NCBI GenBank assembly: GCA_946699065.1
Contig: CAMPDV010000195.1
Coordinates: 124,001-188,000, forward strand
Origin: Loxodes magnus
Lineage: Eukaryota > Ciliophora > Karyorelictea > Loxodida > Loxodidae
DNA: 64,000 bases
Direction: 5' to 3'
Shown here: positions 843 to 64,000 of the stretch, piece by piece
Layout: each line of letters starts with the position of its first letter
Numbering within the stretch: the first letter of the stretch is position 1
Notes under the pieces: generated by a model
What the model was told of the DNA's origin: nothing
The model's input: the letters and a program-made list of their open reading frames with translations, nothing else
The model's database searches: none
Translations under genes and position numbers: made by a program

Positions 843-1028
843 GAAGGCTTTTTATACCATCTCCTCAAAGTACCAGAGAAAAACTGAAGCACTTTCTTCT
901 ACCACATCTTCACTTTAATTAGTCCAACCTTCTTTATTTTTAATGGAAACTAGACTCATAACACAAACATTCAGACTACACAAAACCAAATTCACTGATC
1001 AAACGAACATGATATAATAATACACTCA

Positions 1029-1957
1029 ATGGGAAAAGGATATCAATATATCTATGATTGGACTGACTTCACTAAAAGGAGGAGCATAAAATAAGAAAGG
1101 AATGAAGTGGTAAAAAAAGTCACAACCTAAGCAATAATTTAACAAGAGAATTAACAAATTATTTCAGGAAACATCCCTGAAGACTAAATGGTAAGTCTAC
1201 TAAAATACCTAGACTAAGAAGTGATACAAGTGTTTAGGAATCAAATATGGAGCGAGTACGGACAAGCAGTGGCAAAATTCATTATTAATTAAAATGGAAT
1301 AGTATATTTGGACTTCAACAATGAAGAAAGATACTATCAATTCGCTTAATTCATGGAATGAACATTCAAAGGCGTTAGAATTTCTATCTAAGGAAGAAAC
1401 TTATTAGAATACTTTGACATTCATAATTACCCAGTTTACTTCATAATAAACGAATATTCAAACATGAAGGAAGAAATGGAGAAAATGAGACAATATGGAA
1501 AATCTAGAGGAGAGATATAGCATAAATACCCAAACACTACAATGCTAACAGGTAGCAGTGCAGTGTACTTAGATTTAAAGGATATAGACGAAGCAAAGAG
1601 GATACCAGAAGTAATAGACCTGAACGGAAACAAAATGAGAATACTTTACCCAGTAAATTTTATTTGCTGCCTATGAATTTGAAAGGACACACAGACCAAC
1701 AATGTAAAAGGGTGGAAGCAGCAAAAAGGAAAAAACTACATACAAGAGAATTAGATAAGTTTGAAGGAGAAGTTAAATTAACAATAAACAAACCAGAATT
1801 AAAAGCAAATCAAGCAAATAAGAGGATAATTGAAGAAGGAGAGTAAATGATTATATAGGAAGAAAGGGAAGAAAAGAAAGAAATAAAACGAGGAGAATAG
1901 AAAAATAATTAAAACTACTAAAGAATTAAATAATAAAAAGCTTTTTATGCTAAATGA
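1029..1957 (+). pseudogene. LINE A ORF1, nucleic-acid-binding protein with CCHC remnant
   Basis: The first frame opens at ATG 1029 (HSMGKGYQYIYDWTDF; it stays open back to about 843) and runs to about 1665. The reading then shifts one frame. The join falls in what should be a CCHC zinc knuckle: FICC in the first frame and KGHTDQQCKR in the second give the C..C....H....C pattern only if one base is lost or gained. A lysine/glutamate-rich tail follows to TGA 1955-1957. One internal TGA falls at a plausible Trp (FMEWTF, about 1350) and two more lie upstream of the ATG. ORF1 proteins bind the element RNA and act as chaperones in retrotransposition; that role is inferred from position and knuckle. 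The upstream start is uncertain. Confidence 0.65.
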
Positions 1958-3790
1958 ATAAATAAGAATTATTTTTCATCAAAATGGAATTGGACATATG
2001 TAAGACAGAGGGATAGAGAAATGTTCATAGAACTAAAAAAAATAAAAACAATCAACTATATAATAAGATATAATATAAAACAAATCAGAGAAAAGGATAA
2101 GATAAATGATGGTAAAAATGCTAAACTCTAACAGAAGAAATAAGAAACAAACAAAATAGCATAATGAAGTATGTAAGGAAAAGCATAAATAAAGAAAAGA
2201 AACAAAAAGAAATAGAACAAGCTCAAGAAAAAAAGAATGGGATGCAAGATAAAAGTGAGAAGTAAGAAGCAAACTGAAACAAAATTTAATTAGAATTTAC
2301 TATGCTAAGAAACCAAAAAACAAAAATGAACAATTACCAACAACAATTAATAGGAAAAGGCAAAAGAAGAAGAATAGAATAGATTAGAAGAAGGAAAAAA
2401 TAGATAATAAGAGAAAAAGATAAAAAAGGGAAATGAACTAATAATGAAAGAATATGGAAGCAGAGAATGAAAGATAATATGAAGGAAAGATGTAGAAGGT
2501 AGATGAATAAAAAGAAGAAAGTGGTGAGGAGGAAGCAGAGGAGATGGGTGAAAAAGAAGAATAAGAATAAATCATAAAAATAGAGACAGCAAATGTTAGG
2601 GGAGTTAGAAGTGCAAAAGAGGCACTAGCCAAATTCATGACTTAAAAAAGTATCCACATAATGGCAATAAGAGATTTAGATTGAAGGCTAAAAAGATATG
2701 TGTAATATAGCAGGATATAAAAATTTAATAAATGTGGGCTCAAAAAAAGGGAAATGAGTAGCATTATATATTAGAAACGACATATGTAAGGAGATTAGAA
2801 AAATATAGAATGAAGTCAACCAAATTACGCTTTTTGGAGGAGCGAGAGTGATGGCCATTGAAATAATGAGAAAACTGGCAGTAATAAATATATATGCACC
2901 TGTGGCAAACGACAACGAATAATATGAGCCATTCTATAATTTAGTGAATGAATTTAAACTATAAGCAATAGAAAAAGGACTTAATGTAATGATCATAGGA
3001 GATTGAAATGCACACTTAGAGAAATGATTACCTAAGAAAGCAAAATCAGCTGGACAAATAATGCTACAGTTCATGGAACAGAATAATTTAGTATGCCTAG
3101 ACCCAATTGAAATAGATACTTTTGTTCACTAAAACAATAAATATAAAATAGATTACTTTTTAATTGAAGAGATAATGAGAGAAAAGGCGATAAAAAGTGA
3201 TTTTTATTACTCATACGTAATAGGGATCATAGACCCGGTATTATATAACTTAAGATTTGTAAAGAAATTAGAAAACCATAAAAGATAACAAAAATAAATT
3301 ACCTACTATTAAAGTAAAAAGAGATCTAAGAAAAACTTGAAAGATTTATACAAGAAAATGTCTAAGAAGAAGAAATTGATAGCCTAAACGGTACGTAGAC
3401 TTATAAATGATGAAATAAAAAGATATAAGAAGGAGTTTAATGGTATTTGGAACAGTTAAAACATAAAACTTTAAGATATATAAATACTCAGAAACAACAA
3501 ATTAATGTAATAAAATATTCAGAAAATGCAGCAAACAATTAAAATAAAGCGTAAAGAACAACGAAGAAATAAATGAAAATCAATAAAATAAGAAATTTAG
3601 AGAATACTAAAGAGTAAGACAAGAATACATTTAATCAAGAAAAAAAGATAAAAGAAACTAACTTAACCTATTTATGGACAATGTAAATAAAGGAAACCTG
3701 ACAGAAAAGTGGAAGAAACTAAAAAACTGCTTAAAAAAAAATAACTAGTGAGTACCCTTATCAAAAGAAGATGTTAAGACTTTTGGGGAC
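1947..3790 (+). pseudogene. LINE A ORF2, endonuclease part, truncated before the RT
   Basis: Starts at ATG 1947, overlapping the end of ORF1 by 11 bases. The first ~200 codons are lysine/glutamate-rich. The endonuclease follows: IETANVRG near 2580, GYKNLINVGSKKGKW at 2715-2757, RKLAVINIYAPVANDN at about 2868-2917, and the catalytic GDWNAH at 2998-3015. A frame change near 2690 separates the first EN strand from the rest. TGA stands at the Trp positions of KGKW (2755), GDWNAH (3001) and EKWLPK. The linker continues to about 3700, shifts frame, and fades at the junction with the cysteine-rich pseudogene. The family cleaves target DNA to prime reverse transcription; this copy lacks the polymerase and cannot act. 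Confidence 0.75.
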
Positions 3791-5750
3791 GAACAAACTC
3801 TCGAGAAATCAAATAAGTAACTCTTAGAACAATGATCGACGCATTTATTATCTTATAAAAATTTTGAATTTGAACAACTAAAACAGTCAAGGCCGTTTTA
3901 AGAGCATGAATCGCAAAAATCAATACTTTCTTAGCAAGGTTTGCATTAGAAATAAAAATTGAGTCAATAGCCATCTTAACAGATGGAGCAAAGTTGCTTG
4001 TCTTAACTGCATTGATCACAATTTGATATAGCGAAATTGCAAGGAGAACAAAATCCGTTTTCATCAAAATCTTATTCAGATACAGAGCATTATAAACCAC
4101 ATCTGTTACTAAAATATCCAAGCTTAAAAGGATAAAAGCAAGAGAAACATAAGGAAGAATTACATAACTTACAGTTTTCTGAAATATTTGAACAAGAAAG
4201 ACAATCTATGTCATCTTATAAAAAAAATCCTTCGCTGCACTTTGAACACTTAAGGCCATCTTCCGTACACTAGACACAATTTTCCAAAGCAGAAGAACAA
4301 GCTTAGCATAGTCTAGTATTGTCTTTATCTTGTTCAGAATTTGGACAGTGGCTTGAGCATTTCTTTATTTAATACTATAATTTAAAAGGACTGAAGCATT
4401 CAAGACAAGGAACTCCTCCTACTTAACAACTTTTGCAGTTAGTATCAGTGCATTGATGACATTAGAAATCGTTTCCTATGTAGAATCCTTCGTTGCACTT
4501 TGAACACTTAAGACCATTATACTACATTCTATGCAGTTGTTAATAACTTATTCGCAAGGTTCGCAGATTTTTTAGCTATTTTTATCCTAATGTGTTAATG
4601 GACAGATATAAATGCAAGTATTGTTGTATAGATATTTCGCGTAACATTCTATGCATTTTATTTCATCGCATGTTTTACAGTCTGTAATACTATAACAGTT
4701 TAAGCAAGAATTTTCTATTAGAATTTTTCCATCCATACATTTATTGCATATTGTACCTTCCAGATTACAATTTTAACATCCTTGTATTGCTTTGTTACAT
4801 TTTTCACAAATAAAATCTCCGTTTTTATCTTATGAATTTTCTGAACAATTATCTTCGCATAGAAGATCAATTGTTAAGTATTTCGGATACTAGCATTAAG
4901 CACATTATTGCCGATAGCAGGATTTACAGAAAGGTATTATTTTTTCACATAATTCACATTCAAAAGGATTTGTACTTGATTCGACATAATTTTAGTCGCA
5001 TTTGCATTGGTTTATTATATCAAGATGTTAGTTTTATCTACATGTTAAGCAGTTTGTTGAATGAGATCCATTGCATGTAAGACATCTACTATCACATGCT
5101 TAACATTGTACTAAACTTGATATATCACATCAGCCACTAGAACAGCTATCTTCGCACGGATTTTACTTAGAAGAATCTTGAAATTAATTTATGGTGAATT
5201 ATTTATTATTAATTCAAAATCTAAAATCGTACATTCAACCTTATAGATAATATTAAATCCCAGCCCCTAACTTTATAATGGAATTTTATGTAAAAGAAAA
5301 ATAAGTTCCTACGTTCGCCGATTACCAGGTTGCCTACAGATGATTTTTATTTTTAGCATAGCCTCAGTCAAATTACGTTCCTTATTATTATATTACGAGA
5401 AAAATTCATGTGCTGCAAATTCCAAAATATGTAACTTTCTCGCCACTAAATGTATTACTTCTTATTCACATTCCTTCTTAAATATCTCTAAATCTTATAT
5501 CAAATTCATTTCAATCAGATCCTTCATTCAAACTAAAAATAGTATTTGCATTTCAGTCACAAAATTCAAATCTTATTCAGCAACTAATAGCTCATGCAGT
5601 TTATGAGTTTACAGAAGGGTCATAGTTAAGATTAGAAAATTAATAAGTAGAGAAGTTGGTTCCTGAAAAGTAAGTTGGAGTATTATCTAAAAGTTATAAA
5701 CTCTAGGGATACGATTTTTATATTAGTAAGAGAATAAATGTAAGTCACAT
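3784..5750 (-). pseudogene. Truncated cysteine-rich surface protein (paralog 1)
   Basis: Starts at ATG 5750 with MWLTFILLLI, a signal-peptide-like N-terminus whose second codon is TGA. A lectin/LamG-like domain follows, with TGA at many aromatic positions (TAWAISCWIRFEF, CSTWIFLVIQQQG, GWMYDFRFWINN). After it come about 400 residues of CxxC repeats with conserved SEQDKD and EDGLKCSKC segments. A one-base loss near 4514-4526 shifts the frame between ECS and GLKCSKC. Homology to the two intact paralogs ends around 3784 (CVDHCSKSYLFDFSRVC), so the last repeats, the membrane region and the tail are missing and LINE A sequence takes over. It is more divergent than the other two copies and its 5' leader differs from theirs. 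Confidence 0.85.
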
Positions 5751-15031: not shown

Positions 15032-18000
15032 TCATACCAAACTTAAAAAAATAAGTGACGCAAGTAAACTAAATGAAAACAATTAAAAAGAATAAATTAT
15101 AATAATAAAGTTATAATCTGGAAAAATAATTGTAATAAGCAGTAATACAAACTAGCAATTCAAGAATAAAAATGCTAATTAAATATTCGACCTTTTTCTT
15201 CTAGCTCTAAGAAACCAATATTTTACTGAATAATATAGAACTGTCAGAATCAAGAGAAGAAAAAAGAAAAATTTGTACAAAATTCGGATGCTAGAACTTT
15301 ATATTAGAAAAATAAGAGATAGAGGAATATATAAATAAATTAATAGTTATATGACAATCTAATAATTTGACTTAAGATATTACTATTCTAAGAATATATT
15401 TTTAAAATATTAATTTGATTGAAAATAGTTAAGTTTTTATTCATAAATCCCTTCTCTTGAGCAAAGTTTATCGAAGTATTTTTCTAGATATTTAACTTTC
15501 TCTTTATCTTTCTAATCTCTGCTGGTTTTTTTTAGATGTTTACGAATAAAATCTTTAAATCTTGCTTCTGGAGACATCTTAATATCTTTTTTGTATCTCT
15601 ACAGATCTCTATTTTTTATGGACTTTTTTAAATTTTATAAATCGACCTTCTTGGATTTAGCTTCTTTCAACAGATTTTTCACGATATTTTTACAACATTT
15701 TGAAAATCTTTTCTCTTTAAAATTTTCATCAACTACCAATTGATCATCAACATCTACTTTCTACTATAATGACTCATCTATTATGAAATTTAATTGGTTA
15801 TAGTTTTAAATTTCTTCTATATTTTATATTTAAAGCTATTAATTTAAATCTTATACTGAAGTGTTTAAGTTTCTTCCAGTTGTAAGTCTCTAACTCTTTA
15901 CCTAATTATATTTTCCTAGTACTTCTAGTTATTAAACATTTAATTCAATATCAGTTTTATTCAATTATGGAGAGACTTATTACTATAACTACTTTTTGTT
16001 TCTATAATTTATGTATTTAAGATAGAAAATTTTAAAAGCTATAAACAAACCTACTGAAATATTAGTGAAAGTGAGTAAAGTTGTAATTAATTAAATTAAA
16101 TTTAACAAAAAAATTTGTGGTACCTTCAATTTTCAGAATATGTTCTTCCAATTGAAGGTATTATATTGTTTTTAAATGTTATTGTATATCAAGTTTATTG
16201 CTCTTCAGAACTAATTTTCTAGTTTAGGTTTTTTTTTTCTTCTAAGTATTTCCTTTCTTGTTCATTTTCAAGCTAACTTTCATTTTTTCTATTTTCTGTT
16301 GTCAATCTTCTTCTTCTTCATCTTCGCTATCGTTTTCCTCTTCGTTCCAATCTTCTTCTTCCTCATCATTTTACATCTAATTTTGTTGGACATCTTATTC
16401 TTTGTTTTCTTGTTTTTATTATTCTTCATTCTCTTCATTAAAATTTTCTATTCTTAGATTTGCTTCTTTTTATTATTTCTCGTATTGCTCTTCTTCTTTC
16501 TCTTGCTATAGAATTTCTCGCCTCCTTTTAATAAACATTTGAATGAATATTTTTATTTATTCATCCACCATTTCTATTTTTTTCTTAGGAAAAGAGTTTA
16601 TATATAGTTAATCGTAACTTATTAGTTTCAAAATATCACATTAACCAATTTTGGAGACCAATCATTCTCTTATATCAATGTAATATATACATTCCATTAC
16701 ATGTTGGAGAGTGTCATATTCTCCGCATATACAAAAAGGGTTTTCAATAATATAATTTCGATCTTTCAGAGTCTTTCGAAATGCGTAAGACTGGCTTCTA
16801 ATCTTATAGATACAAATTATTTCTTTCAAATATTTTTTGTTTAATTTCGTGTATGTTATTTTGGGGAATTATCTTAGGTTTTAAAATTGTTCTGTATATA
16901 TTTATGCAGTAGGCATTCTGCTGAATCTTGAAAGAGCTAATTCAAAATATGTCTTTTATATTTATGTCTACACATATTTACTGAATTAAATTAAGTTGTT
17001 ATTGTGCTCTTTATTATCAATTTCTATTTTATAAAATGAGGCCAGTTTCTAAACTTCATCATAATATTGATATCCCTCTTTATAATTATTCTCAAACAAT
17101 ATTCCAATAGATGATTAAGGTTGATTTTAGCTTTCATTTCTAATCTTAAAGAAAAACCTGAAATACTTAAGAGCCATCATGTGTTTGAATGGCATCCAGT
17201 TGAGGTCTACAAAGCATGATTCATTAAACGTATTTCCTGCTGATTAGAAGGCTTTTCTGGCTATTAATCTCATGCTCTTTTCAATTCTGTTCAAGATTCC
17301 ATTTATTCCATACTGCACAGTCCAAGGTATTAAGTCCCCACCGTATTCTGCTTTAGGAAGCGTGAACAGTCTACAAAGCATTTTGAAATTTCAAGGTGTT
17401 ACGTTTCTATATCTTGATAATGCAAATACTGCCTTTTTAATTGCTGAAAGATAGTTTGTAGCAACGTATTTGCAATGGTTAATTAGATTCTTCTTTTGGT
17501 GAAGGATCACCCCTAAATATGTGACTTGCTGTTTCTAAATTATTGCTTGGTCTCCTATTTTTAAGTCTAGTTTTGTTTCTTTGCTTTTCTTTTTTAAAAA
17601 CTATAATGTTTCGCATTTGGAGACATTTATTTTAAGAAATGTCTAATTGAAAATGGAGTTTGCTTCATTAATAAGTGACTACATATTTTTTTATGAGTTC
17701 GATAATAGTATTAAATCGTCAGCTCAACCTCTACAAGTGAACCTATTCTTAAAATTAGCACATCTGAATCCTAATATTTCTCCTTTGTTTTCTATATGTC
17801 TAATGACAATGTCATAGTATAATAATGCAAGCACAGGTCCATGCGAACTTCCTTACATCACTCCATTGCTAAATTTCAATTTCTTAGAATTTGTTCCGTC
17901 TATAATAAAGGAAGTAGTTAAGTTATTATAAAATGATTCTAAAGCCAAGATGAGACCTAGTGGTAATTTGACTCTTCTTAGTTATTTAAAAAGAATTCTT

Positions 18001-21000
18001 CTTTCAATAGAATCAAACATTTTCTCTACGTCAATTAAAGTTGCAATCAGTTTAGTTTTTCCTTTCGCTTGTTTTCGATAAAGATCTATGATTTATTGGA
18101 TCACTCATATTTATTAGGTGGTTTATTTGTTCTTCATAAACCCCATTTAGCTTGAGTGGATTAACTGTCTTTCATAAATTATTGAGTAGAGTCTCTTCGT
18201 AAGGGCCTTATCATATAATTTCAAAATAGTATTGATAAGGGAAATAGGGCGTCAGTTTTTTCAATCGTCTTTACTTCCTTTTTTGAAAATGGGGATTATG
18301 ATAGAAGTATTAAGCTCTTCAGGAATCCTTCCAATTCTAAGCATGTTATTTATAAAAGAATGAAGCATCAACGCTAGATAATATCCTGCATATTTTAGCA
18401 GTTCTCCTTTTATTCCATCTGGCCCTGCTGCTTTACCATTAGGAATTAGACTTATAAGTTAGGTAATCTCTTCTATTGTAAAAGGATCGAAATTTTATAA
18501 GTAAGAAAAGGGTTAATTTTGAATTTCTATGTTATTTTCATAAATTGCATCTATTTTCTAGTTACTTAGTTCAATCTATTGGTTAGTTAAATTCGAATGC
18601 TTGCTAAATACTTAATTTTCCCATGCTTCTACAAATTAGTCCTTCAATTCCTTATTAAAGTTCATCAAATTTCTTTGTCTAGGGTTAAGTATTTTCTTTG
18701 CTTAAGAAAACATATCTTTTGTGGTTTCATTGAGGAGTAGGAATCTGTTTTTGGCCTTTTGTTTTTTAAATTTTCATAAATGATGCTAAAAGCTTTTTCA
18801 TAATGTGTTCGCTCTTTAGTGAAGATCAATGATTTCTTAGTTATTCCTCCCTATATATGCTAAAGTTTCTTTGTACAATTAATTTGCTCTCTTTGCTTCG
18901 ATATATTTTTATGTGAGGTCCTTAGGAAGTCTATTATACTTCGGGTCTGGGATAAATGAGCCTAAAACTTAATCTGCATTGTTCTAAATGCAGTCTCTAA
19001 TATAAGTGTATTAATCTTCTAAGTTATCTCTATCAATTAGGAAGAATACTTCTACTTAATCTTTGAATGAATTCTAATAGATAAATCTATCAATAGGATC
19101 CTACAGTCTACTTATTTTGTACTTTCTCACTTTTATTTTTTCAGTTTGAAGATGAGTATGGTATACAAATTCAACTGTGAATGGAATATGATCTGAAAAT
19201 AAGCTATAATTATGAACCTGAAAATTTCTAAATTAATTCATATTCAAGTGATTACTGATGACAATATAATCGTTGCAATACATATTTTTATTCCCTTTAT
19301 GTAAACATGTGTTCATATTTGCATCGTTTATTATTTCTAAATCGTTTTAGAGAATGAATTCTTAGAATCTATTTGTATTGTCATAATTGTTAATAGGGTT
19401 ATCCCCAAAGTCTTATAGTAGAGCGTTAAAATCTCCTAATAATATATGTGAGTTGTCAGGAAAAGAATTAAGGAATACATTTATATATTCATATGCTTCG
19501 TCTTTTATATTTTCACTCTTGCTGTTATCTGGCATGTAACAAGATGTTATGAATATATTATCTAGTTTGATTGTAACGAACCTCTCTTGAGCTAATTGTT
19601 ATATGCTATTCTATTCCATGCTATTAAGTTAATCTCTAACAATTAAGCAAACTCCTCCTCCTTTTCCTGAGTTCTTGAAATAGGTCCTATATCCATTAAT
19701 AAGTATTGGAGGATAGTCTTATTTTTATCACGTTTCATTAATTGAGAAAATGTCTAAGTCATTATTTCGTATAAATTCTTCCACGTTTAATTGCTTGCTT
19801 CCAATTCCATTTATGTTAATATGTCCAAGCTTTATTATGCCTATCTCTCTTTGCTTATCGATAGGCATCTTTATTTCTTAATTCTCAAATTCTTGTTTGC
19901 ATTAATATGGTTATTCTACATTGTTCTCTACACCTCCTTTGAGTCTTAGTTATTTTTAAAGGACAATATAGTTAATTCTAAAATCAGTTTATAGCAGCGT
20001 TTTAACTATATAATTTCCGTTTTTTGTAAATCGATGAATTTCTTATGATGAAGTCAAAACTCCTCCTTTTATTCCTGGCTCATAAATACAGAGAATCTTC
20101 TCATTTTGATGAATTTATATGTTAAGTAATTTGGGGCAATTTTTGATATATTACCTGTAACTTATTATAATGAATAATGTCAATGAATCGTACTTTTCAC
20201 TCAATTTATTATCGATTTTTATATCTATTTCATTTCCATCACACGTAGCATGGTTTAGTTTGCAAGATAAAGTTATAAATCTATTGCCTACTAAAGTGAA
20301 AAGATTCTAATTTCATCATTTATTGGACCTTATAAATTGAATTAGTTAGGCGTCTTTAAATTCGTATTTATTTAAAATATCTTCAATATTTATTTCATTA
20401 AACCCAAATTTTGACTATTTTAAGTTTAAAGTGTCTTGGTTAAATTTGGCATCTCTTCAACTTCTCTTTCCAAATTTTGTTTGGCTATCCCAATTCATCA
20501 CATATGATGTCTAGATATTTGAATTTTCTAAAATTTCAATCTGCTAATCTTCTTAAATTTAATCACTTAAAAATGTTTATGTTGAAGCATTTCATTTTAT
20601 TTCTTTCAAGTAAGATTGAGTTTTAACATCTTATTATTTTCTCTATATTTCTGAAATTTATGCATAGACATTTAGCTTCAATTCTACTTGATGCTCATAA
20701 TCCTGCATGAGTTAAACATATAATCCGTTTAATTCATTATATTACTCTTACAGTTTTCCATTATTCTATTTTGTGATTTATAGTTCTTGTTAAGAAGCAA
20801 CTAGCTAATGATTGGTAACTACTGTTATTGTTCCTTCATCCTTAGCATTGATAGAATTTTAAGTCTAAATAACCTAATTCTTTAACTCCATGATTCTTGT
20901 CTAACTATAATTGCTTATTAATTTCCCTTTTTTTGTTCATGTTCAAGCATCTTTGCTATTAATTTTTAAACAGGTTTGTGTTTCCTTTTCTCAAAACTAT

Positions 21001-24000
21001 TTTTATTAACACGAGACAAGTCTTTAGTAGACACTCTATATATCTTAATTGATAAATTATTTGTTTAATTTATCATATAAATTCTACAACTTTGTATACT
21101 TCAATTCAACGAAGTCGCACTAGGTAGATTGATCTAAGAATAATAAGTCTGTACCAGTAGTTGAATCTAAAGTCGATATAGTTGCTTGAGAAATTTAGTT
21201 GCTGAATTGAATTTCAATTTATGTTTATTCATTCTATGTCTGAGGAGTGATTGTTTATGTAAAAATGCTTTTGACTGATTTGGCATATTTATTTTTTTGA
21301 AAGCTCAGTTCCTATGATATTTAATAATTCTCATTTTGTAATAATTAACACTAAGCCTGTTGTTACTAGCAATTGACTGTGAGTGAATGTACCTTTTAGT
21401 CGATCTGATCTATTTTGCTTAATAAATGAAAATTTTCACCTTTGAGATTTTAGTTAAGAGTTTCTACCTCCCTAAGATGTTATTATACTTCATTATGTCT
21501 CAAATTACATTTACTCAATTCAGCTTGAATGAATTAAATTTGAGTAACCAAGTTGTTTATAATATTTTGGGCTTCTTACTTGGAAGCAAGTATTGCCTCA
21601 TCTTGTAGTTTAAATGATAGTGTCATGTTCATTAGCTCCTCACTAAGCATAGCTTGTTTTACTATACTTTGCTATTAAGTCTAAGTGAGAAGTTAACTCT
21701 AAGTTTCCAATTCTTATATTTAAGTTAAAGAAAGATCAGTATTCGTTTATATTGATTATTATTTATTTGTAGCATTATTTACAAATTATTTGGACTAAAG
21801 CATTAACTATTTCTACTAATTATCAAACCTTAAGATTTAATTTTTATTCTAGATTTTCTTAATTTACTTTTGAGCTTTAAATAAATAATTTTGGTATTAT
21901 TCTAAGTGTATTTTATATTGTGATTTAATGTTTAAAGTTTCTTTATTGTGTTACTCATATATATGTATTAGCTTTTCTTACAGAGAATTATTTTTAGTTA
22001 TGAGTTTTTAAATTCGAAATTTAAGATTTTTGCTTTCAGTTAGCCTTTAATTTTCAAAAGTATTTGCCTCTTCTATCTTGCTTTAAATTTTATATTTTAA
22101 TTTTGCAATTTTTTCTTAAAGTTACGCATTTTAAATCTCAAGATCAGTCAAGTATGTAATATCAAACTTCTCTTAGTAATCAGTTTAAATGTCTATTGAA
22201 ATCTGCTATTGACTTTTTATGTTATTTTGTGTATTGAATTGTTGAATTTTTATAGTCTCTTATTAATTTTGTATTTAAATTTAATTTTAGGTTTTAATTA
22301 AAGAAATATCTTAAATATCCTAAGTATCTAAAGTATCTTACTGTATATTGGATATTTTAGATACCATCGTAGAGGTTGAAGTAACAAGCTAGTCTTTTTA
22401 CCTATAAGTATATTTCCTATATTTGAGATTAGTCTTCAATTAATGTCCACGTTTTAAAGAATTGCCAAGCTGTCTTAGTGGAATTCGAAGATATCTATTA
22501 ATTTGGCATTAACTGCAGCTCTTTAGCAAATTTCTTAGTAATTTCATGATATTATCAACGGATTTAAGTTGCAGCGATTCCATGTCTATTTCATAAAAGT
22601 AGTTGAGCATCTGCCTATGCTCATCGTTTTAGAAAGCAGCTTCTTTATTTTTAGATAAAGAAGAGTCGCTAAGAAAGAAATCTTGCGAATTTTTGTACAT
22701 GTCCATTTTTTTTTTTTTTTTTAAAGTTGTAATTAATAAGATGCACTTACCAGTTTCTTTATACTTCTCTTCGTTTATCAGTACTCTTTCTTACTTATCA
22801 TAAGCTATGAAGCAAAGGTCTAAAATAAATATCATCAAAATTGATATTTCATTAGCAAGGTTTAACTAAGAATCTAATGTAGATTTATAAGGATTTATTT
22901 ATAGTAAATAAGCTATTTGAACTATGTTTAAAATAATTAATGTAGCTACTTATAATTCTGGATACTCTTAGGCAAATACTATAACTAAACTTATTAAAAA
23001 TCTTCGCACTATAAAGAGAACATAAAAAAGACAAACTTGAAAATATTCTTGATATCTAAACTCTTCAAATAAACTTCCATATTATATAATCATCTAACTC
23101 TCCTTTTCTTTATTTCTGGAGGCTTTTATTTTGTCTAATTAGATAATTTTTAAGGATATTAAAATGACAAATAAAATCTATATAATCTATCTAAAAATCT
23201 TACCAATAAAATGAATGCAAAAACTGAATTCAAACAGGTATATCAATCGTAGCACTGCAAATTCTTAAATTGAAGAAAGATAGCTATTCAAAGTTAAAAA
23301 GTGTTGATTAATCCAAATCTGATAAAAGCGCAATATTTAAAGTGAGAAATTAAGTTCTTAAAGTATGAATTCCCTTTCCATAAATTTAAAATAACTAGAC
23401 AACATAGAAATATAAAGCATTAGATAGTTATTTCAAATAAAGCTCTGTAAATGTTTGAAAGTATAGTATACTCATTATAGTTATAGATGTTTAAATTTTC
23501 ACTGGATATTATATTTTTTTAATTACTCGTTAAAAATATACTTTAAATTCCGAAGTTGAAGCTCAGTATTCCTATTGACTTTAATTAATAGAAATATTTT
23601 AAGTTTTCAGGAAATTTGAGATTGAGCATACCATTTAGACTTAATAACTCATCTAAGAAAATTATTATTCAAAGCAAAGTGAATCCTGCTGTGCTTCCTT
23701 ACTAAAATATAATAATAATAACTGCAGAAGCAATCATAGAGTTTGCTAAACCTTAATTTATGCCATTCGTTGATTTTATGTAGCTTTTCTCTGTTTCTGA
23801 CAGATAATCTTAGTTTTATTCTTTGGATATATTTTCTTCTTCGGGTATGCTTTCTTCTTCGGGTATGCTTTCTTCTTTGGGTATATTTTCTTCTTTTTCC
23901 TCTTCATTTTATATCTTCTCACACGTAAAATTTTCTGTTCTATTAAATTAGTCAAAGCATATCAAGCATTTACTTCCATCCTCTGAACATTATGAACAAT

Positions 24001-26389
24001 TAGATATTTTCTATTCGCAAGGCAAGCAAATCTTATTAATTCAGTCATAGTATTCTGTCTAAGAGCATATTTCAATACAATTATTATTATATAATTTTTT
24101 ATTATTTATACATGCTGTACATTTATTTTGATCTAAGCACTTAACACAATCTTCATTTATTTCTTAACAAGAAATACATTTTTAATTCTATAAAAAAAAT
24201 CCTTCTTTACATTCTAAGCATTACACTAATTACTAATCGCATTTACTACAATTTTCTATTTCTAAATCACAGCCCTAACAAATATTATCTTAGTCATAAT
24301 CTTATTCACTTTCATCACATTATTATTAGCATTTATTTTAAGAAAGCTTCAAACTATTACACTTTAAACAAACATTTTACTATTTGCAGCCAATACAATT
24401 TACATCTATCTAAGAGCACGAAGGGCAGTTATTATTGAATGGAGTTTGATTTCCAAAACATTAATCACATACAAGTTAATTACTCTCTTCATGACATTTC
24501 TCACAATTTTCTATTTTATAACTACAAGCTTAGCATTCATTATCTTTATCTAAGTCTTATTCAGTATCTGGACAAAAATCTACACATTAATTTTAAGAAA
24601 TTATTTTACTACAGAACTAACAAATAAATGAAGAGTCATAAAAATAATGTTTAGAGCAGCTATCAACACATTAGTTATCTTATAACTTTTTAGGATTCTA
24701 ACAACTTAAGCAAGTCTTTCCATCTTATGAACAAGTAGAGCAAAGCTAAATACTTTCTTAACATTATTTACATTAAGAATTTTAATAAATCCAATAACTA
24801 GTTTCGCAAATATAGCAAGATTATACTTATTAATCGCACTCTTAACAGTGAGAAATTACTTAGGTACAAGGTTCACAAATTTAATCTTAGTTTAAATCTT
24901 ACTCACTTGCAGGGCACTGAATGTCACATTTCTTATCGATTCATCTTAATTTATAAGGATTAAAACAAGAGAAGCATTAAGAAGTATTGCAGATTTGACA
25001 ATTATTTGAAAATAATGAACAGGTCAGGCATTAATCTTTGTTACTATTTAAATAAAAACTAGAAAAGCATAGAGAACACTTTAACCCATCTTCTGTACAT
25101 TACTAGCAATTTTAAATAGCTTCATTACAACTTAAGCAAATTCTATAATTATCTTTGTCTTATTCAGTTTCTGGACAGTTAGCTGAGCATTTGTTTATAT
25201 CATATTCTAACTTATAAGGAGAAGTACACTCTATGCATGGATTTCCTCCAGTGGAACATGTTTTACAATTATTTATTGTGCAGGCATAACATTTTAAGTC
25301 AACTCCAATATAGAATCCATCACTACATTTTTTGCAAGTTAATCCATCAGAAGCGCATTCTAAACAGTTAGTTAAAGTTTGGTTGCATGGTTCACATTTT
25401 CTATCTCCATTTGAGTCTTAATGAGTAACAGGACAGAAGCCCAAGCAAGAATTCTAATAAAGATATTTATTAGCACATTAAGTACAAGTAATTGCATCAG
25501 TGCAAGCTGAACAGTCAGATATAACTGAACATGAAGAACATGTATTTCCTGAGATAAAATATCCAGTCTCACATAAAGAGCAAACAGTTCCAAGAATATT
25601 ACATTAAAGACAATTGGTAAGAACTAAATTACATAATTAACATTTAAAGTCATTATCTTTATCTTATGTTGTATTTAGGCAAGCATCTTAGCATGTTTTA
25701 TCCAAATTCAAAAACTAGTTATTTGGACAAACTTGACAAGTTGTGAGTGCTTAATTATAGCATTATCCATTTAAGCAGCCATTTGAACATAAATAGGAAT
25801 CAAAGAGAGTAAAAAATTCTTATTCGGTGAATTATTTATTATTAGTCCAAAATCTTAAGTCATAAATACTACAATTAAATATTGTATTTTGAGTTGAACC
25901 AATTGTAATTCAAGAGTTAGGAGTAAACGTAAATTATTTGTAGCTAATGCTATAAGTCGGAGTAAAAATTTTACTAATGGAAAATTTTTTAAAGCCGTAG
26001 GTTAGATTGTAATTAGCTTGTTAAACTAAAATTAATGCTCAACTATTATAAATTTAGTAAAAAGATGTCAAACTCAAATTGAAATCAGCTCTATAAAATT
26101 TTAAATTTTCATAGCTATTATAAATTAAAAATTAAATATCCGTGTAGGAGTTTTCGTTTTACAAAGCAAAGGCTGTTTAAAATTTTGTCCCACCTTAGAA
26201 TTAAAATTAAAATCACCCTGTTATAGCTCAGCCAGTTTGCGAGTTGATAGAAGGATTGTAATTGAACTAAGAAAATAATATTTTCTGTGTATTTTATCCT
26301 TAAACAACTAATGGAATGCTTGGATTTGCAAGTTATAAATATTGAGAAAAAACTTAATAAAACCGCAAAACCAGGAACGCTAGTCACAT
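15032..26389 (-). CDS. Cysteine-rich multi-pass surface protein (paralog 2), LINE in its last intron
   Basis: Three exons: 26389-23204, 23186-22751 and 16053 to about 15032. The start is ATG 26389 followed by TGA (MWLAFLVLRFY), a signal peptide. A lectin/LamG-like domain (TGWAITGWFQFQFQ, NSWALILVQQ, FTPNSWITIG, DLRFWTNNKQF) occupies about residues 35-200. Some 630 residues of CxxC repeats follow, then a short acidic IPEEES hinge (23822-23884) and a multi-pass membrane region (SMIASAVIIIIFQ, RALFEITIQCFIFLCC, LNSVFAFILL then IIQILFVILISL). The charged tail includes SPEARFKDFIRKHLKK. A 17-nt intron restores the frame at 23187-23203. The second intron carries LINE B. The first in-frame TGA after exon 3 is at 15032, but the last ~130 codons look low-complexity, so the true end may be near 15430. 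Probably a plasma-membrane protein; function unknown. Confidence 0.85.
16076..16091 (+). repeat. LINE B target-site duplication, 3' side
   Basis: TAAAGTTGTAATTAAT, identical to 22722-22737. It lies within the host intron just before the acceptor side. Sixteen bases is a typical TPRT duplication length. Confidence 0.9.
16121..16160 (-). other. Hairpin in the LINE B 3' UTR
   Basis: TACCTTCAATT and AATTGAAGGTA form a perfect 11-bp inverted repeat around an 18-nt loop, about 140 nt after the stop and 30 nt before the element end. The position is what would be expected for a 3' RNA structure recognised by the element RT; that role is inference from other LINEs. Confidence 0.7.
16302..22706 (-). 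CDS. LINE B polyprotein: ORF1-like region, endonuclease, reverse transcriptase
   Basis: ATG 22706 to TGA 16304-16302, 2134 aa, with no frameshift. Residues 1-900 are glutamine-rich and coiled-coil-like, then a compact domain (FGFNEINIEDILNKYEF). The endonuclease starts near Met947 (GIIKLGHININGIG), with INETW at about 993, GDFNA at 1091-1095 and SDHIPF at 1171. RT motifs are GKAAGPDGI, IIIPIFKKGS..NWRPIS, TLIDVEKMFDSI, NGVMQGSSHGP (1614 onward), GWADDLILLS (1660 onward) and TYLGVIL. The C-terminus has CICGEYDTLQHVMEC (from 1992) and a very acidic tail. TGA encodes the Trp of ETW, both Trp of DDWKNWRP, GWADD, TPWNF and REWLV; TGG is used at EAWEN, IPWTV, LNWMP and EEDWNEE. It nicks DNA and copies its own RNA by target-primed reverse transcription. 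The two halves may be expressed separately; Met947 is an alternative start. Confidence 0.9.
22722..22737 (+). repeat. LINE B target-site duplication, 5' side
   Basis: Second copy of the 16-bp direct repeat, adjoining the poly(A) run (T17 on the plus strand, 22706-22722) that precedes the LINE B start codon. The intron donor is 13 bases further upstream. Confidence 0.9.
23187..23203 (-). other. 17-nt intron of paralog 2
   Basis: The minus-strand sequence GTAAGATTTTTAGATAG starts with a strong donor and ends in AG. Removing it joins AFILL to IIQILFVILISL, giving one continuous hydrophobic membrane helix, and moves the reading into the frame needed downstream (YGSLFEEF, then VRRFLISLVIVFAQEYPELQ). 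Without removal the frame gives no recognisable sequence. Inferred from reading frame only. Confidence 0.75.
23822..23884 (-). repeat. Short 18-bp tandem repeat encoding IPEEES, 3 units plus a partial
   Basis: On the minus strand three 18-nt units (ATA CCC/ATA TCC followed by acidic codons and Ser/Asn) form the hinge between the CxxC repeats and the membrane region. The paralog at 36328 has twelve full units at the same place. Confidence 0.9.
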
Positions 26390-26415
26390 TTTTTATAAAT
26401 AAAAGTGAAATTAAA
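26390..26415 (-). promoter_or_regulatory. 5' leader of paralog 2, identical to that of paralog 3
   Basis: The 26 bases before the ATG match those before the ATG at 36328 exactly, and the sequences diverge upstream. They mark the end of the duplicated segment; whether they hold promoter or 5' UTR signals is unknown. Confidence 0.6.
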
Positions 26416-36301: not shown

Positions 36302-36327
36302 TTTAATTTCACTTTTATTTATAAAAA
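36302..36327 (+). promoter_or_regulatory. 5' leader of paralog 3
   Basis: Identical 26-bp leader to that of the minus-strand paralog (26390-26415). It is the 5' edge of the inverted duplicate. Confidence 0.6.
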
Positions 36328-39300: not shown

Positions 39301-40837
39301 AGACCTGATATTCTAAATGCTTACTACTATCAATAAAGTCAAAGCTTTATTAATAAAATATAAAACAAAATAAACTTTGAATCACAAATTAGTTAAGTCC
39401 ATAAATTTAATTTACGATAATTAGGATATGAAAGTTACATTTTCTCGGCTAACTCTTTCATTTTCAATATGTTGATATTATCAGTACTGTTTTTAGATAT
39501 TCTTCTTCTTATGATTTAAAAATTTAGCAATATAGCTTGGCTGTGAAAGTTAAGAAACAAATATTTCCATTATAGGCTGCCTTTAACACTTTATCTACTA
39601 TTTAGTCTGTAAATTGGATATTCCTCCATCCTTCAAATTACCAATTCCAACTTTTAAACCGCTTTCACCACCTTTAACGTCCTAGCCTCATGAATAGTTT
39701 TAGTAAGTTTTATAATTTTAGATTTTATAAGTTTTAGTTATTTTTCGTTTACTTTTCGTTTTAAAGAATTATTTCTAGTTAAAGAATTAAATTAATAATG
39801 AAGACATTCAATAAAAATAGAAGCTTGAAGATCTAACAACTAAATGATTTCCTCTGTTCGATGAACTCAAAAGCGAAAGGAAATCTTTAATTTTCTATCC
39901 TTTATTCCTATTAAGAAGAATTCTGCTATCTTTAATCTTAATAAGTTTATAGGAGCATGTAATGGCTTAGATAGTTCTTTGTTTGCTAATAAGTTTATTT
40001 TAACTTATTTACGTAGTTATATGCTAACCTTTCAAGTTCAAATTACTTAACATAGTTCATGCCTTTTAAGAATTTTGACTCTGTACTTTGTACTCTTTTA
40101 ATTTTTACTTCCATTAACTCAGTAAAGAAAAAGAAGAAAGAAATTAATTAAATTCAGACGAAGCATATCGTTTAGGAAGAGCTATAGTTTTAATTTCAAG
40201 CATTATAACAGCTATTGGAATAGTATTGTGCATAATAGCAATGATAAAGGATATTATCACATAAATCAAAGAAAACAAAAAACAAAAAGAACTAGAAAAA
40301 TTAAAGAAATAAGATTAGCTATAAAATTAAATTTAACTAAATAGTAACTAAGCTTAAGATAATAAAAATACAAGTAAATCAGATAGTAGGGATACTTTCA
40401 TTGCTGAATTACCTAATATAGATAACTCTATCATTTTATAAATGTCAAGTTCAAGGAAATTAGTTAACAATGTAATAAATTAAAATTAGGACGAAGAATT
40501 AGTATTTTAAAAAAGTGACTCTAATATTAATAGCTAAAATTAAGAAAAAAAAGACAATAAAAAGAGTAAAATATTGAAGGAGAAAAGCAAAACTAAAAAG
40601 AAAATTTAAAATACTCCAAAGAATAAAGTTCTAGACAATAATTGACTAAAATGATTAATATCTGCTACTGATTAATAATTTATATGGAGTGTAACCCATT
40701 AAACATAATAATCTGATATGATTCAAAAACCTTAAGCATAGTAGACTAAGAAAAAGCAAGCAAAAAAGAGTAGAATGCATAAGAAAAAGGAAAGTAAGAG
40801 AGATGCAGAAGAGGAGATAAAAGTTGAAGATGCTTGA
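36328..40837 (+). CDS. Cysteine-rich multi-pass surface protein (paralog 3)
   Basis: ATG 36328 is followed by TGA (MWLAFLALQLYQV), a signal peptide. The lectin/LamG-like domain (KTGWAVTGWFQFQFQGW from residue 52, NSWTFILVQQ, DLRFWTNNKQF) covers about residues 35-200. CxxC repeats run to about 830, with recurring TEQDKDN and EDGLKCSLC segments. Twelve IPEEES units (836-907) and an acidic hinge precede several membrane segments (SFIFNMLILSVLFLDILLL, VLASWIVLVSFIILDFISF, IVLISSIITAIGIVLCIIAM). The lysine/glutamine-rich tail ends ...IKVEDA at TGA 40835. One 40-nt intron (40083-40122) restores the frame. About 15 in-frame TGA sit at Trp-like positions against about 6 TGG. The total is 1489 aa. It is nearly identical to paralog 2 up to the hinge and different afterwards. 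Surface receptor or antigen role is inferred. Confidence 0.9.
38833..39063 (+). repeat. 18-bp tandem repeat encoding IPEEES, 12 units plus a partial
   Basis: Units begin at 38833. The first three vary (AGA, AAT, AGC as last codon, CCC/CCT for Pro), the next nine are nearly perfect ATACCTGAAGAAGAAAGC, and a partial IPEEEE unit follows from 39049. It encodes a rigid acidic linker between ectodomain and membrane. Near-perfect homogeneity indicates recent expansion. Confidence 0.97.
40083..40122 (+). other. 40-nt intron of paralog 3
   Basis: GTACTTTG at 40083 to the AACTCAG end at 40122. Removal joins ATT TTG ACT CT to T AAA GAA, reading RILTLKEKEERNQLNSDEAY and then a membrane helix. Without removal the frame gives a lysine-rich nonsense stretch. 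The donor GTACTT is weaker than those in paralog 2. Confidence 0.75.
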
Positions 40838-41044
40838 TAAATTAATTAGGATATATTAAATTTAAATTTTTATTTATTCATAATAATTATTATTTTTATG
40901 TGCAACACCCACATCAAATAAAATGAGCTAGTTCATAAGAGTGATGGAGAGACTTATAGAAAAAATTAGAAAAGCAATATAAAAATGAAAAATTCATAAA
41001 ATGAGCAAAGCTTATCATCTAGATAAAATAGATAAATTAATTGA
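40838..41044 (+). other. Possible read-through extension of paralog 3
   Basis: If TGA 40835 is read as Trp, the same frame continues through QINQDILNLNFYLFIIIIIF and MCNTHIKQNELVHKSDGE to a TGA at 41042-41044, adding 68 residues. The part from 40898 looks protein-like; the first 60 bases are pure A/T. Either stop could be the real one. Confidence 0.4.
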
Positions 41045-51753: not shown

Positions 51754-54700
51754 TCACTCCTTGCTTTTATTTTTCATTTTCTCAATTTTTTCTCCTTTCT
51801 CTCTAAATGTAGTTAACAAATCGCTTTAGTCTCCGTCTTCATAAAATTAGAAACTTTGCACTGTATTTCCCTGATCATTATCACTTTTTTATCCTTCATA
51901 ATGATCATAAAACGCTCACTTTGCTTTAGGTCACTTTGATTAATAATTTAACCTGTTTATTTAGATTTCTTTTTTTATATTTTGAGGTTATTTTGTAATA
52001 ATTTATTTGCTCTCTAACTATAAGATACTTGGTTCTTTTTCTTCATTTTCTTGCTCTAAATTCCAATTTTTATTTAAATGAGATTCAATTAAATTTTCGT
52101 CTATTAATGTACTTTCTTGCTTTTAAGTATTTAAGTGTTTTTCCAGACTTTGGTTTAAACTTACTTCTTTTATTGACTCTCTATACTTTTTCATGATCAA
52201 ATCGCTTTCTCCGAATAAAATCGAAGCTTCTTTGAAATTTCATCAGTTAGATTAAATTGATGAAATCCTGTAACTTCAGTACTATTATTAAGAGAGAAAA
52301 CGATTATAAGCTACTTGTTTATACAGCTCCTTCAAGCATGTTCCATATAAGAGAGTCCATTCTAATTGTTTGATCATTTGAATAATATCTTGCTGCTAGA
52401 ATACTAACTTTAGCTTCTTACTATGTTTGTTTTCTTAATCCAAATCATAGAATTCCTAGTTTAAATCTTATTGTTTTTTCTTCTTATTATGAACTATCAT
52501 TTTGCTTATCTTTTTCCTAAGCTTGTCAAAAGTGCCTTAATCCTTCTTAGCTAATTACTCTTCTTTCTTTTCCCATTTAGTAACTATCTCATTCAACTTT
52601 ATGAATTTCTTAAAGTGACATAAGCGAAAATAAAATCTCATAGAATTGGTAAATGTCTAGTATCCATATTCTGTGAAGATATAATGAAACCATACTACTA
52701 AGAAATACCCATTTATCACTATCAGCAGCACAAACAAGGCTAAATCTAGTAATTTATAACTTTCTCCTGATTCAAAGTAAATTCCTATGAACAATATGGA
52801 AATCGAAATTCCTAGGTAATTCATTTCTAAACTATTAAGCTCTTTTTTAATATAAGGCTGATATCTCATCTATAGGTATATACAGGAAAGCATTACTATG
52901 ATTAGACACCAAAACTGGAATATGATAGTAGATTTTTATAGGAAGATAAATATTAAGGTGATTATAAACTTCTAGTACATCTTTATAAACTCTCAGAAAT
53001 AAAACTTATCTTTATACCCTATTGTTAGGAAACCAAACTAGGACTTTATTAGAGTTGAACTTATTAAGTTTCTTTTCTTATAAAGGTATAAAATAACTAT
53101 AAAAGGAACAAATATTCCATATAGTAATAAGCCTGGTAACGCAAGAAATAGAACGAATTTTCGATGACGATCTTTCCAGCATTCTATTTCAGTATAAGCG
53201 TTTAGCACTGCATAGTCTGGGGAAATTTAGTAGCAACTAAAGGAACTAAAGATAGCCATAATTAAGTTAGTGTATATTTAGAAGAAAGCAACACTCATGA
53301 TAGTAATAAAAATAGATTTGATGAATTTCTTTCTTCTAATGATTGAATATAGTAGAATAGAAGTAAATGCTATTATTAAAATAACTATTGGCAATCCCAT
53401 ATTGCTCATTACTTTGTTGTAATATTAGTTCTCATTTTACTAGTACATGCAATCCAGTTTGAAAATAGATGCTGTAGCTGCTTAGTATTATTGATTTATC
53501 TAAAATATTTCATTGAAGAAGTCGGGTCATTAAAACTTGAAACTCTATATTAGATTAGAGAATTACATGTAATTGGAGAATATTTTGAAATATACTCCAT
53601 AGTAAGATTCTTATTCGTATGCTGATTTTAAAGTTTATACTACTATATAAAATATAAAAGCACCAAATAATACTAACACTATCGAAGATACGATTATGGT
53701 CGTTTTTTTACTCATACATCTCTAGCATTCGTTCAGTCCATTTTTTTATCAGCCTTACTCACAAACATCACATAAAACTCCTTGATAACCTTTTTTGCAG
53801 TTTCCTTGTCAATTTACTGTCTACAACATATTTTCTCTTTACTAAGGGTTGGTTATTTTGAAGTATTAATTTTAAAAGCTGCTGTTTAAAAATGTACCCA
53901 AGCAAGCCTTATGCTTTGGACATTTGTGTATTGTCTCTGATTTAAAGTTTAGTCTTCAATAGCCTTCCTTAGGTGCTATTAAATCACCGCCATATCACAT
54001 TGCTCCTTACATGCATTCCTTACAAGATTTATCACTTTAATTTAAAGAATATTAGCCAAATATGCAGCTCTGACATTAAGTATCGTCTATCAATATTTGG
54101 CCTTAAAGGCACTTATCAATGTTTAATGATATTGTTAGTTTGTTTTCCATATTCTTGTCTAGTGCCAGATCTCCTTTTTCAAAAGAATTTGTTTCTAATT
54201 AAATATGAACTTGCTTTCCAGGGTTAGCTTTGACAATTATGTCTTTAATATTAAAAACTCCTAACTCTGAAAATACCCTTGTCTTGCCAGACAAATCAGC
54301 GTCTTCAGAAAAAATAGAAGCAATTGAAGTATTGTCAGTTTTAACTATCTATCCAAAAATATCTGTTATATATAAAGCATTCTCAGGAACAGGATAGCCA
54401 GGTAATTAAGATGCTAAGCTTCTATCAATAGAATTATTATTGCAATGATCAAACACATCACTGACTGAAATATTACTTAATTTAAATGTAAATGAGGCTA
54501 CATTATTTCCATAGTAAGCTGAGTTATTTTTAAACAGTTTGCATACTAAAAGGCTATCTAATCCAGGTATAAATGTAGGGATTGTTCCTTAGAATGAAAT
54601 AGCTCCGCCTTCGCTTATTACGCTCATTACTTTGTTGTTAAAGAAAGAATTATCTTAAAAGTAGTAGCTGCAAAGTAAACCCTTATCACATGTTACTTTT

Positions 54701-61180: not shown

Positions 61181-63781
61181 AAACAATTAATTTATTATTT
61201 TTAATTATCAAGTAAAATTTTAACTGTTGGATTTTAGCATGCTGTATAGTTATGTTAAGGAATCAACTCAAGAATTAAAGAAAAAGAAAATTAGAAAAAA
61301 AAAGCCTTGAGTATTTTAACTAAAATGATATAAAACTGATAAAAATAGTTAAAATATTTAGGAAAATACAAATTGTAACAGATTAGAAAAATAAAAAGTG
61401 ATAAATAATGAATCAACTCTACATTTGGAAATTAAGTTATAGTGCAATTATCAAATACAAAGTGATTGATTAATTAGAATTTTACATAGAATATTTTTAG
61501 AAATTAAGTTGTTTTAAATAGAATTTATTTTTATATAGAAGAGAAATAAGATGATTATTTAGCTGAGAAGGAATAGAAGGGAAAATAATGTAAAATAAAT
61601 AATTAGAGACAAAAACATAATAAAATAAAGATGTAAACTTGATAGAATTTTATCTAATTAGCTGTTTTATTCATTCCTTAGAAATAATTAGATTAAAAAT
61701 TCTCCATATAAACTAAATTATAAAAAGAAGAATAGAAAGGTAGAAAAGAGTAAAATGCTTAGTAAAAATAATCAGAGAGAAAAGAAAACAAATAATATAA
61801 ATAAGAAGAAGCTTTATACAATTCTTGTAGTTCACAATAAACATTTTTTTCTAAAGTTATTAATTATTTTGCTCTAATTAAATAAATTATCGAAAATATT
61901 CTAAATTTTTAAGTTAAATTAATTAAAAAATAACCAAATAATCATTTTATTTCCCTTGAAGATTATGTCAAATCAAAACATTTGGTTATTTAATTGGCTA
62001 TTCAAATATAAAACTAAAAGCTTAATTAAAATTGTAAATTGATTCTTCGCTTCTTAGTTTTTATGCTTGTTAAAAATAATTAAGTTTTTAAGACAATCTA
62101 AACTTTTTTCTTTGATAATCTAATTAAAAAATTCATAAAAATTTTAAAAATAATTTCGTCAATTGAAAGATAGGAATTTTCTATAGATTCAACTTTAAAT
62201 TAGGAAAATTTATCTTCATTTTAATTTGGCTACTGAAATAAAAAATAGCTGACTTAATAAAATATCTACTTGTAATTCTCTTATATTTATTTAGCTTTCA
62301 GTTTATGAAGGTACATCATTCAAAAATTTAGTTCTATTTTCCTTTCCTAATTTTTTTCAAGTTATTTAGAATTTTTATTTTTGTTCTTATAAGATAAAAA
62401 CAGGATTAGAGTTTTTAATTTAACCATAAATAGATAGATAAATATTACATTATTAATTTACAATAATTAATTAAAATGAAATAAAAAGTCATATACTATT
62501 TCAAAGCTTTTGATAAAAACTAAAATATAAAGAATTTAAAAATCACTTAGAAACAAAATTAAAAGCTAAAATTAAGAGAAAATTATTTTAATTTTAGATA
62601 GTTATTGCGACTCTAAAAATAATAAAAATTAAATTAGCTTTTATCTTATCTAAGAATTTGTTTATTTTAAATAATAATTAAAATTCCTAAGAAACTATAA
62701 GTATATTAGTACATATGAAAAAATACTAAATTATATACCTTTGGCATTTAAAACATAAGTATTATTAATATAAATTATACTAAAATCGCTATGTATAAAG
62801 CTTTTTCTTCTATTTCAATTTTTTATTATTTTTAAGATTTATCTTAAGGTATAAACTTGGTTTCTTTTTTCATTATCCAAATTTTGCTTATGCTAGTTAC
62901 CCTAGACATTAGATTTTATTTTCTATAAATTTATTTTTTTATTATTATTTTTTTTACTGCAAAGAAACCAAATTTATTACCAACCTAGCATCACTAAAAG
63001 GAGTAATCCATTTGCTGTGTTCATTTATTTTATACTAAAGTTTAAGATTAAATTATTGAATTTAATAAGTTATAATTATTTTTATTTATATAAGCAGATT
63101 AAGTTAATAGTTCTACCCAATTAATTATTAAGAGATATAAAAAATGTTTAAAAACGTAAAAGGAAATTAGATATTTAAAGTAGGTAGTTATTGAAAGTGT
63201 GAGTTATGTATCCTAATTAATTTTTCTCAACTTTTAATTTCTTTATTTTTTAAAACAAACTACAATTATAAAAGGAGTCTAGATTAATTAAAGCTATATA
63301 AAGTTAATTTTTTAAGAGGCAGAATACTCTTGTTAATACCATCTAATTATTAATAATTATTTAACAGCGAGAATATTCAAAATATAAATCATTTATGTTT
63401 TATGGTTATTGCTTTAACTCCTAAAACTTTCTATTTAGAGTATAAAGAAATTTCCTATCATATGATAAACCTTATAACAAGCTTTTTATCTACTATAAAT
63501 CTTTACACTCCATTTTTAATTCCTTGGAAGATTTAATTAAACTTCTAGTTGTGCATAATTCTTAGTTTTAGATATGAATTGGATAAGACCCATATGAAAA
63601 AGAAAAGAATGCTTAAAATCAAAATTAAAGATAAAAATTAGAAAATAAACCAAAAATAAGTTGAAGTAATGAAAAATCAAATTTCTATCTAGGTAACTGA
63701 AGCAGAAAAGAGAAATACAAGAAGGAAATTAATAAAGATAAAAAAACTATCAAAATATATTACAATTAATTAAAATTTGGT
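61181..63781. other. AT-rich spacer, no gene recognised
   Basis: About 2.6 kb of AT-rich DNA. A lysine-rich plus-strand stretch at 63595-63780 stays open but has no motif and overlaps the 3' flank of the minus-strand zinc-finger gene. I do not call it. Confidence 0.45.
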
Positions 63782-64000
63782 TCATTCCTAAGGGTGAGCA
63801 TTGTTATAGTGTTTATTGAGAATTTTAAGCTTCTTAAAAGTCAAATTACACTGAACACATTTAAATTTCTAACTGTGCTTTTTGTAAATATGATTATACA
63901 TAACTTGCTTATTCTTTAGAGTTGACAGTCGCTATTAAGTGTATATCTTTTAGCATTATTTGCATATATAGTCGCCATTATGGTTTATATCGAAGCTCTG
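63782..64000 (-). CDS. C2H2 zinc-finger protein, C-terminal end (5' part outside window)
   Basis: The last 72 codons and the TGA stop (63784-63782). Reads SFDINHNGDYICKQCQKIY with a first finger closing at YNHIYKKH, then a second finger CVQCNLTFKKLKILNKHYNNAH, and ends HPQE. Both fingers keep their Cys and His. It is clearly homologous to the end of the gene at 44347, in inverted orientation and with the frame intact, so it shows what that gene lost. Function as a nucleic-acid-binding protein is inferred from the finger pattern. Confidence 0.85.

Follow-up and report, generated by a model that had tools for sequence, protein, structure and literature searches.

The closest described system to the DNA analyzed here is the code of Loxodes magnus. 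In the portion of the published account on which we draw (PMC11441545), this species uses NCBI table 27, with UAA and UAG (UAR) read as glutamine and UGA as tryptophan, and UGA, in a poly(A) context, is its sole stop; UGA and UAA are depleted for about 20 codons before the stop in Loxodes. A tRNA-Trp(CCA) with a 4-bp anticodon stem has also been reported for Loxodes. A single-cell transcriptome survey speaks against this code, assigning the genus UAR=Gln and keeping UGA for termination; the part of it used here does not list UGA=Trp for Loxodes (PMC6935857). Related codes are described, in part of a further report (PMC4967479), for Parduczia sp., where UAA/UAG are glutamine and UGA is both tryptophan and stop, and for Condylostoma magnum, where all three codons are sense inside genes and all three also stop. 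In a code without a dedicated stop codon, the ribosome must separate sense from stop by position.

We analyzed a window of 64 kb (the whole stretch of DNA under study), which is AT-rich, with a GC content of 16-30% by 2-kb blocks. Under the standard code, it holds only three open reading frames of at least 100 aa. When TAA and TAG are read as glutamine and TGA as tryptophan, long homologous proteins open, and TAA and TAG are dense in frame in the recognized genes:

942..3750 (limits approximate), forward strand: LINE A fragment, with an Exo_endo_phos_2 match at 2878-3180
3750..5750 (3' limit approximate), reverse strand: paralog 1, with an ATG-TGA start
16302..19850, reverse strand: LINE B, AP-endonuclease then reverse transcriptase, the L1-type order
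20991..26389, reverse strand: paralog 2, whose frame runs on into LINE B at its 3' end
36328..40837, forward strand: paralog 3, 1496 codons after splicing at a candidate intron, ending TGA TAA
51754..59046, reverse strand: 2430-aa protein, with a repeat-rich part, a Cys-rich GYW segment and a transmembrane part

Very probably, the window derives from the nuclear genome of a karyorelict, with Loxodes the most likely genus, and follows the ambiguous table 27: UAA and UAG would encode glutamine, and UGA would encode tryptophan within genes and terminate translation close to the mRNA end. The sense code is real in this window, but it is already known for karyorelicts including Loxodes, and our result is therefore a confirmation rather than a discovery. 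What it adds is quantity, with UGA freely used as tryptophan, even directly after the start codon; the position model is therefore easily testable in these genes. A codon-bias scan trained on a single reading frame found nothing general. A second scan flagged the genes listed above, but its training set included an out-of-frame stretch (20991-23049), and its usage figures were discarded. Searches for tRNA and Rfam matches within the 64-kb window returned none, and a degenerate pattern run against a genome contig collection, which may omit records of the source genome, gave 0 matches.

The sense readings were assessed by homology with all stops masked. TAA, TAG and TGA were replaced by X, profiles were built from homologs only, and each codon was scored against the columns in which it fell. 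The LINE B profile used the 120 listed of 162 homologs found and was also applied to LINE A; that of the 2430-aa protein used 6 homologs. Positions with a posterior below 5 were discarded, a cut that left 22 of the 26 aligned TGAs; the 4 lost include one in a tryptophan column (2434). Sense codons having at least 4 positions each served as the control, and 47 of these 57 were called correctly. The homologs had been gathered under the TGA=W reading, a possible mild lean to tryptophan, though the alignments themselves used X.

For TAA, glutamine was best in the pooled score (n=112); in single loci, threonine ranked above it in the 2430-aa protein and asparagine came first in LINE A. TAG scored 14.0 for asparagine and 12.4 for glutamine (n=31) and is thus undecided taken alone. 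In enrichment profile, TAA and TAG both match CAA/CAG, and these comparisons support UAA/UAG as glutamine codons. Codon counts were taken over 5278 codons, comprising LINE B, the homologous parts of paralogs 2 and 3, and the 2430-aa protein, and include 288 TAA and 78 TAG in frame (366 in total). This abundance, with its glutamine-like profile, leads us to give next to no credence to a Blepharisma-type code, which shares the reading of UGA as tryptophan but keeps UAA and UAG as stops.

For TGA, the pooled raw score (n=22) was 0.0 for tryptophan and -0.8 for tyrosine, a margin of 0.8 bits. By locus, tryptophan came first in the 2430-aa protein; tyrosine led in LINE B alone (4.8 against 2.3 for tryptophan), and tryptophan was outside the top four residues in LINE A alone (4 positions). 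The first-pass annotation had proposed such a tabulation of aligned residues as a check, and column permutation over the 22 TGAs showed tryptophan to be enriched (p ~5e-5 for mean log-odds). Columns with tryptophan at.08 or more, 2.5% of all columns, hold 5 of the 22 TGAs (p 1.5e-4 by permutation), and the other 17 lie in columns below.08. Tyrosine was weakly enriched (p 0.014), and the other 18 of 20 residues all fell short of 0.05. The reading of TGA as tryptophan inside genes is thus sound at the level of sequence comparison, with a narrow margin over tyrosine in the raw score.

Inspecting individual sites gives a more varied picture:

18252..18254, reverse strand: TGA at NWRP in the reverse transcriptase of LINE B; column Tyr.51, Trp.38
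52993..52995, reverse strand: TGA at the WEF motif; Trp in 5/5 aligned homologs, profile Trp.84
53527..53529, reverse strand: TGA at WP; Trp in 2/5 aligned homologs, the two closest ones
53956..53958, reverse strand: TGA at GYW; Trp in 3/5 aligned homologs, profile Trp.19, the top residue
53995..53997, reverse strand: TGA at a Cys column in the GYW segment, a counter-example; Cys in 5/5 aligned homologs

Among the tryptophan sites that the first-pass annotation had offered as examples, NWRP (TGA 18254, rated good), GYW (53958, where tryptophan tops its column) and those in the paralogs stand, and ETW (TGA 19730; His.22, Lys.15, Trp.11) is fair. Others did not hold up: the residue before ADD (TGA 17726; Tyr.49, Phe.38, Trp.03) is aromatic rather than tryptophan, the LINE A site at GDWNAH (TGA 3004; Phe.41, Trp.02) is not a tryptophan position, and the TGA at 10067 inside a zinc knuckle (C-TGA-CC) falls at a free site, the second copy at 60855 reading CYYC.

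Residues 1501-2300 of the 2430-aa protein were aligned with 5 of its 6 homologs. Both closest homologs have tryptophan at 8 columns, one of which is a gap in the window's protein; at the remaining 7, the window has TGA three times, TGG twice, and ATT and TAT once each. Conversely, the segment holds 9 TGAs, 3 of which face gaps. The 6 ungapped ones face tryptophan in both closest homologs (3), tyrosine in both (1), unrelated residues (1), and cysteine in all five homologs (1). That last TGA (53997), at an otherwise invariant cysteine, may reflect a real C-to-W change or damage; selenocysteine was considered, is unlikely, and was set aside, the site being a single one. Of the homologs, the closest two, P0121 and P0122, appear to be Stentor proteins. 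Codes with all three stops reassigned are described outside ciliates, for example in Amoebophrya, but with such homologs we consider a non-ciliate source exceedingly improbable.

The three paralogs offer a further view of TGA, beginning with the second codon:

36331..36333, forward strand: TGA as codon 2 of paralog 3, likewise in paralogs 1 and 2
23815-26437 and 36280-38902: inverted 2.6-kb duplicate (paralogs 2 and 3), ending inside an 18-bp repeat (EEESIP)

The ATG-TGA start is found in 3 of 3 paralogs; since paralogs 2 and 3 are near copies, it represents two lineages. These two form an inverted pair, 2623 nt long, 90% alike and gap-free. Under an assumed code 27, their dN/dS is 0.395 for 831 codons, with separate values of 0.65 for the N-terminal domain and 0.33 for the Cys-rich part. 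Between them, TGA faces TGA in 6 columns, TAA of paralog 2 faces TGA of paralog 3 in 2, and TGA of paralog 2 faces TAT in 1. In the N-terminal domain, paralogs 1 and 3 share 33% identity. Alignment to paralog 3 covers 11 TGAs of paralog 1, and the partner codon is TGA for 4, TGG for 2 (one of these at LRFW/FRFw), and TAC, TAC, AAA, AGT and TAA for the other 5. Paralog 1 has one frame break, near 4520, that no intron fits, and is therefore probably a pseudogene; LINE A adjoins it in opposite orientation (3700-5750).

Paralog 2 consists of the ATG-TGA start, a predicted beta-sandwich N-terminal domain, Cys-rich repeats, the EEESIP repeat, a transmembrane part (whose TRP-like match stays under the Pfam cut-off) and a coiled coil. 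The predicted beta-sandwich and the Cys-rich repeats recur in the other two paralogs. Searches with paralog 2 found no homolog and no PDB match by sequence, and Pfam named no lectin family for the N-terminal domain. A predicted model of this domain is of low confidence (pLDDT 60, from 3 sequences). Among the 50 listed of 1716 Foldseek matches, most belong to the ConA/LamG jelly-roll class, including pentraxin, neurexin, legume lectin and sialidase lectin domains, and several of the top ones are parts of clostridial neurotoxin complexes. With modest confidence, the model suggests a ConA/LamG-like beta-sandwich, an assignment of fold class only. Beyond the EEESIP repeat, paralogs 2 and 3 differ in their membrane parts. 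The family looks like one of mosaic surface proteins that exchange segments at the EEESIP repeat. Another inverted repeat pair (45037-45264 and 63772-64000), 76-91% alike, lies over a reading frame without a Pfam match.

Over the counted codons, TGA:TGG is 42:17 (a TGA share of 0.71; one of the 42 is the last codon of LINE B), and tryptophan in total reaches 11.2 per 1000 codons. The share does not differ detectably from that of six other purine-ending pairs (A:G 1127:336, 0.77; p 0.34). By gene, there are 14 sense TGA, 6 TGG, 102 TAA and 22 TAG in paralog 3; 10 in-frame TGA (last codon included), 4 TGG, 47 TAA and 15 TAG in LINE B; and 17 sense TGA, 8 TGG, 117 TAA and 37 TAG in the 2430-aa protein. 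Earlier TGA:TGG estimates of about 15:6 for paralog 3 and 9:4 for LINE B thus survive the recount, as 14:6 plus the terminal TGA and as 10:4. In-frame TGA occurs at 8.0 per 1000 codons (0.80%) in the four genes, compared with 18.8 per 1000 when these stretches are read in their five alternative frames (p 2e-9), and the frames are therefore under constraint. Off frame, TGA:TGG likewise comes to 0.70. The ratio by itself is thus no proof, which comes instead from the depletion and the homology.

These figures bear directly on whether the loci could be decaying germline or transposon copies with random TGAs under ciliate code 6 (UAR=Gln, UGA=stop). Such decay would suit the facts that two loci are LINEs, that the frame of paralog 1 is broken, and that many TGAs stand at columns without tryptophan, one of them at a cysteine. 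However, in-frame TGA occurs at less than half its off-frame frequency, its enrichment is specific to tryptophan columns, it directly follows the start codon in three paralogs (two being near copies), and paralogs 2 and 3 are gap-free with a dN/dS well below one. Code 6 expects no in-frame UGA in functional genes, whereas 42 were found in 5278 codons, one a last codon. We therefore regard code 6 with decay as very unlikely. Overall, masked-stop homology, the paralog comparison, the ATG-TGA starts and the codon shares agree in supporting UAR=Gln and UGA=Trp, as the first-pass annotation had read them.

The frequency of UGA sets the window apart from the two other codes described above with which it shares its sense readings. 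UGA makes up 0.120% of codons in Parduczia sp. and 0.042% in C. magnum, as given in part of PMC4967479; in the window, it stands at 0.80% and is the majority tryptophan codon. The literature searched gave no UGA frequency for Loxodes to set beside this value. UGA may even be the default tryptophan codon of this lineage rather than a rare tolerated exception, a suggestion toward which we lean somewhat less than against, and which is prompted by its 71% share of tryptophan codons, the shared A:G bias and the codon 2 held across the family. If it were true, the ambiguity would carry next to no cost except close to the mRNA end.

Because these genes use all three codons as sense, context must decide where translation ends. 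How it may do so, and in which lineage, is addressed by two candidate gene ends and two candidate introns:

51756-51754, reverse strand: candidate stop TGA of the 2430-aa protein, preceded by 2430 codons
40835-40837, forward strand: candidate stop TGA of paralog 3
23187..23203, reverse strand: candidate 17-nt intron of paralog 2, GTAAGATTTTTAGATAG
39703..39721, forward strand: candidate 19-nt intron of paralog 3, GTAAGTTTTATAATTTTAG

The count of codons bears out the length previously given for the 2430-aa protein. The two candidate stops are preceded by 23 and 33 codons free of TAA/TGA, but runs of at least 23 such codons also precede 9 of 59 other TGAs, and TAA lies close behind both, as the seventh codon after 51756-51754 and the next codon after 40835-40837. 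UGA as the stop is therefore only consistent with these two ends, and the first-pass claim that all reading frames end in TGA is reduced to two plausible cases. In L. magnus, UGA is the sole stop (PMC11441545, in part).

The same TAAs could serve UAA termination under a Condylostoma-type code of a heterotrich source, in which the sense readings are identical and all three codons are also stops. The candidate introns would argue otherwise. Six GT..AG candidates of 14-30 nt have the phase that paralog 2 needs, with GTAAGATTTTTAGATAG the only one of 17 nt; paralog 3 offers five of the right phase in 200 nt, with GTAAGTTTTATAATTTTAG alone having a GTAAG donor. Both read GTAAG...AG and, by eye, apparently occupy the same protein place. 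Paralog 2 shifts frame by 2 modulo 3, a change beyond the reach of any single intron of 15 or 16 nt. Introns of Loxodes have a mode of 17 bp, mostly measure at most 25 and are negligible below 16, and those of heterotrichs measure 15-16 nt (PMC11441545, in part); the candidates, longer than the latter, would fit Loxodes better, though the heterotrich lengths do not come from Condylostoma itself. With the far lower UGA frequency of C. magnum, this makes the Condylostoma-type code unlikely.

A karyorelict-like source, as first proposed, is likely by candidate introns, LINE content and base composition. Part of PMC11441545 gives L. magnus about 2,700 RVT_1 copies, which the LINE content of the window fits, and a 3'-UTR GC of 18.6%, to which the gene-poor blocks (16-21%) are alike. 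It also gives a CDS GC of 33.5%, above the 27-29% of coding sequence in the window, which counts against.

LINE B follows the order of LINE-1-type non-LTR retrotransposons, with endonuclease then reverse transcriptase in one frame (RVT_1 4.9e-32, Exo_endo_phos 4.5e-10; 6.7e-29 to LINE-1 ORF2 in PDB), and differs from them in carrying in-frame UAA, UAG and UGA throughout. A search of a viral contig collection, which may omit records of the source genome, gave 0 relatives of LINE B. In LINE A, the endonuclease match (Exo_endo_phos_2, 5.2e-8) has no reverse-transcriptase match behind it. Two CX2CX4HX4C zinc knuckles are probably gag-like ORF1 remnants of LINEs:

10067-10108: zinc knuckle, CWCCKSNQHIQKNC
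60855-60896: zinc knuckle, CYYCKTQTHLWKRC

The coiled-coil tail after paralog 2 shares one reading frame with the endonuclease and reverse transcriptase of LINE B (16302-23186), and this coiled coil may be either a LINE ORF1 or the tail of paralog 2.
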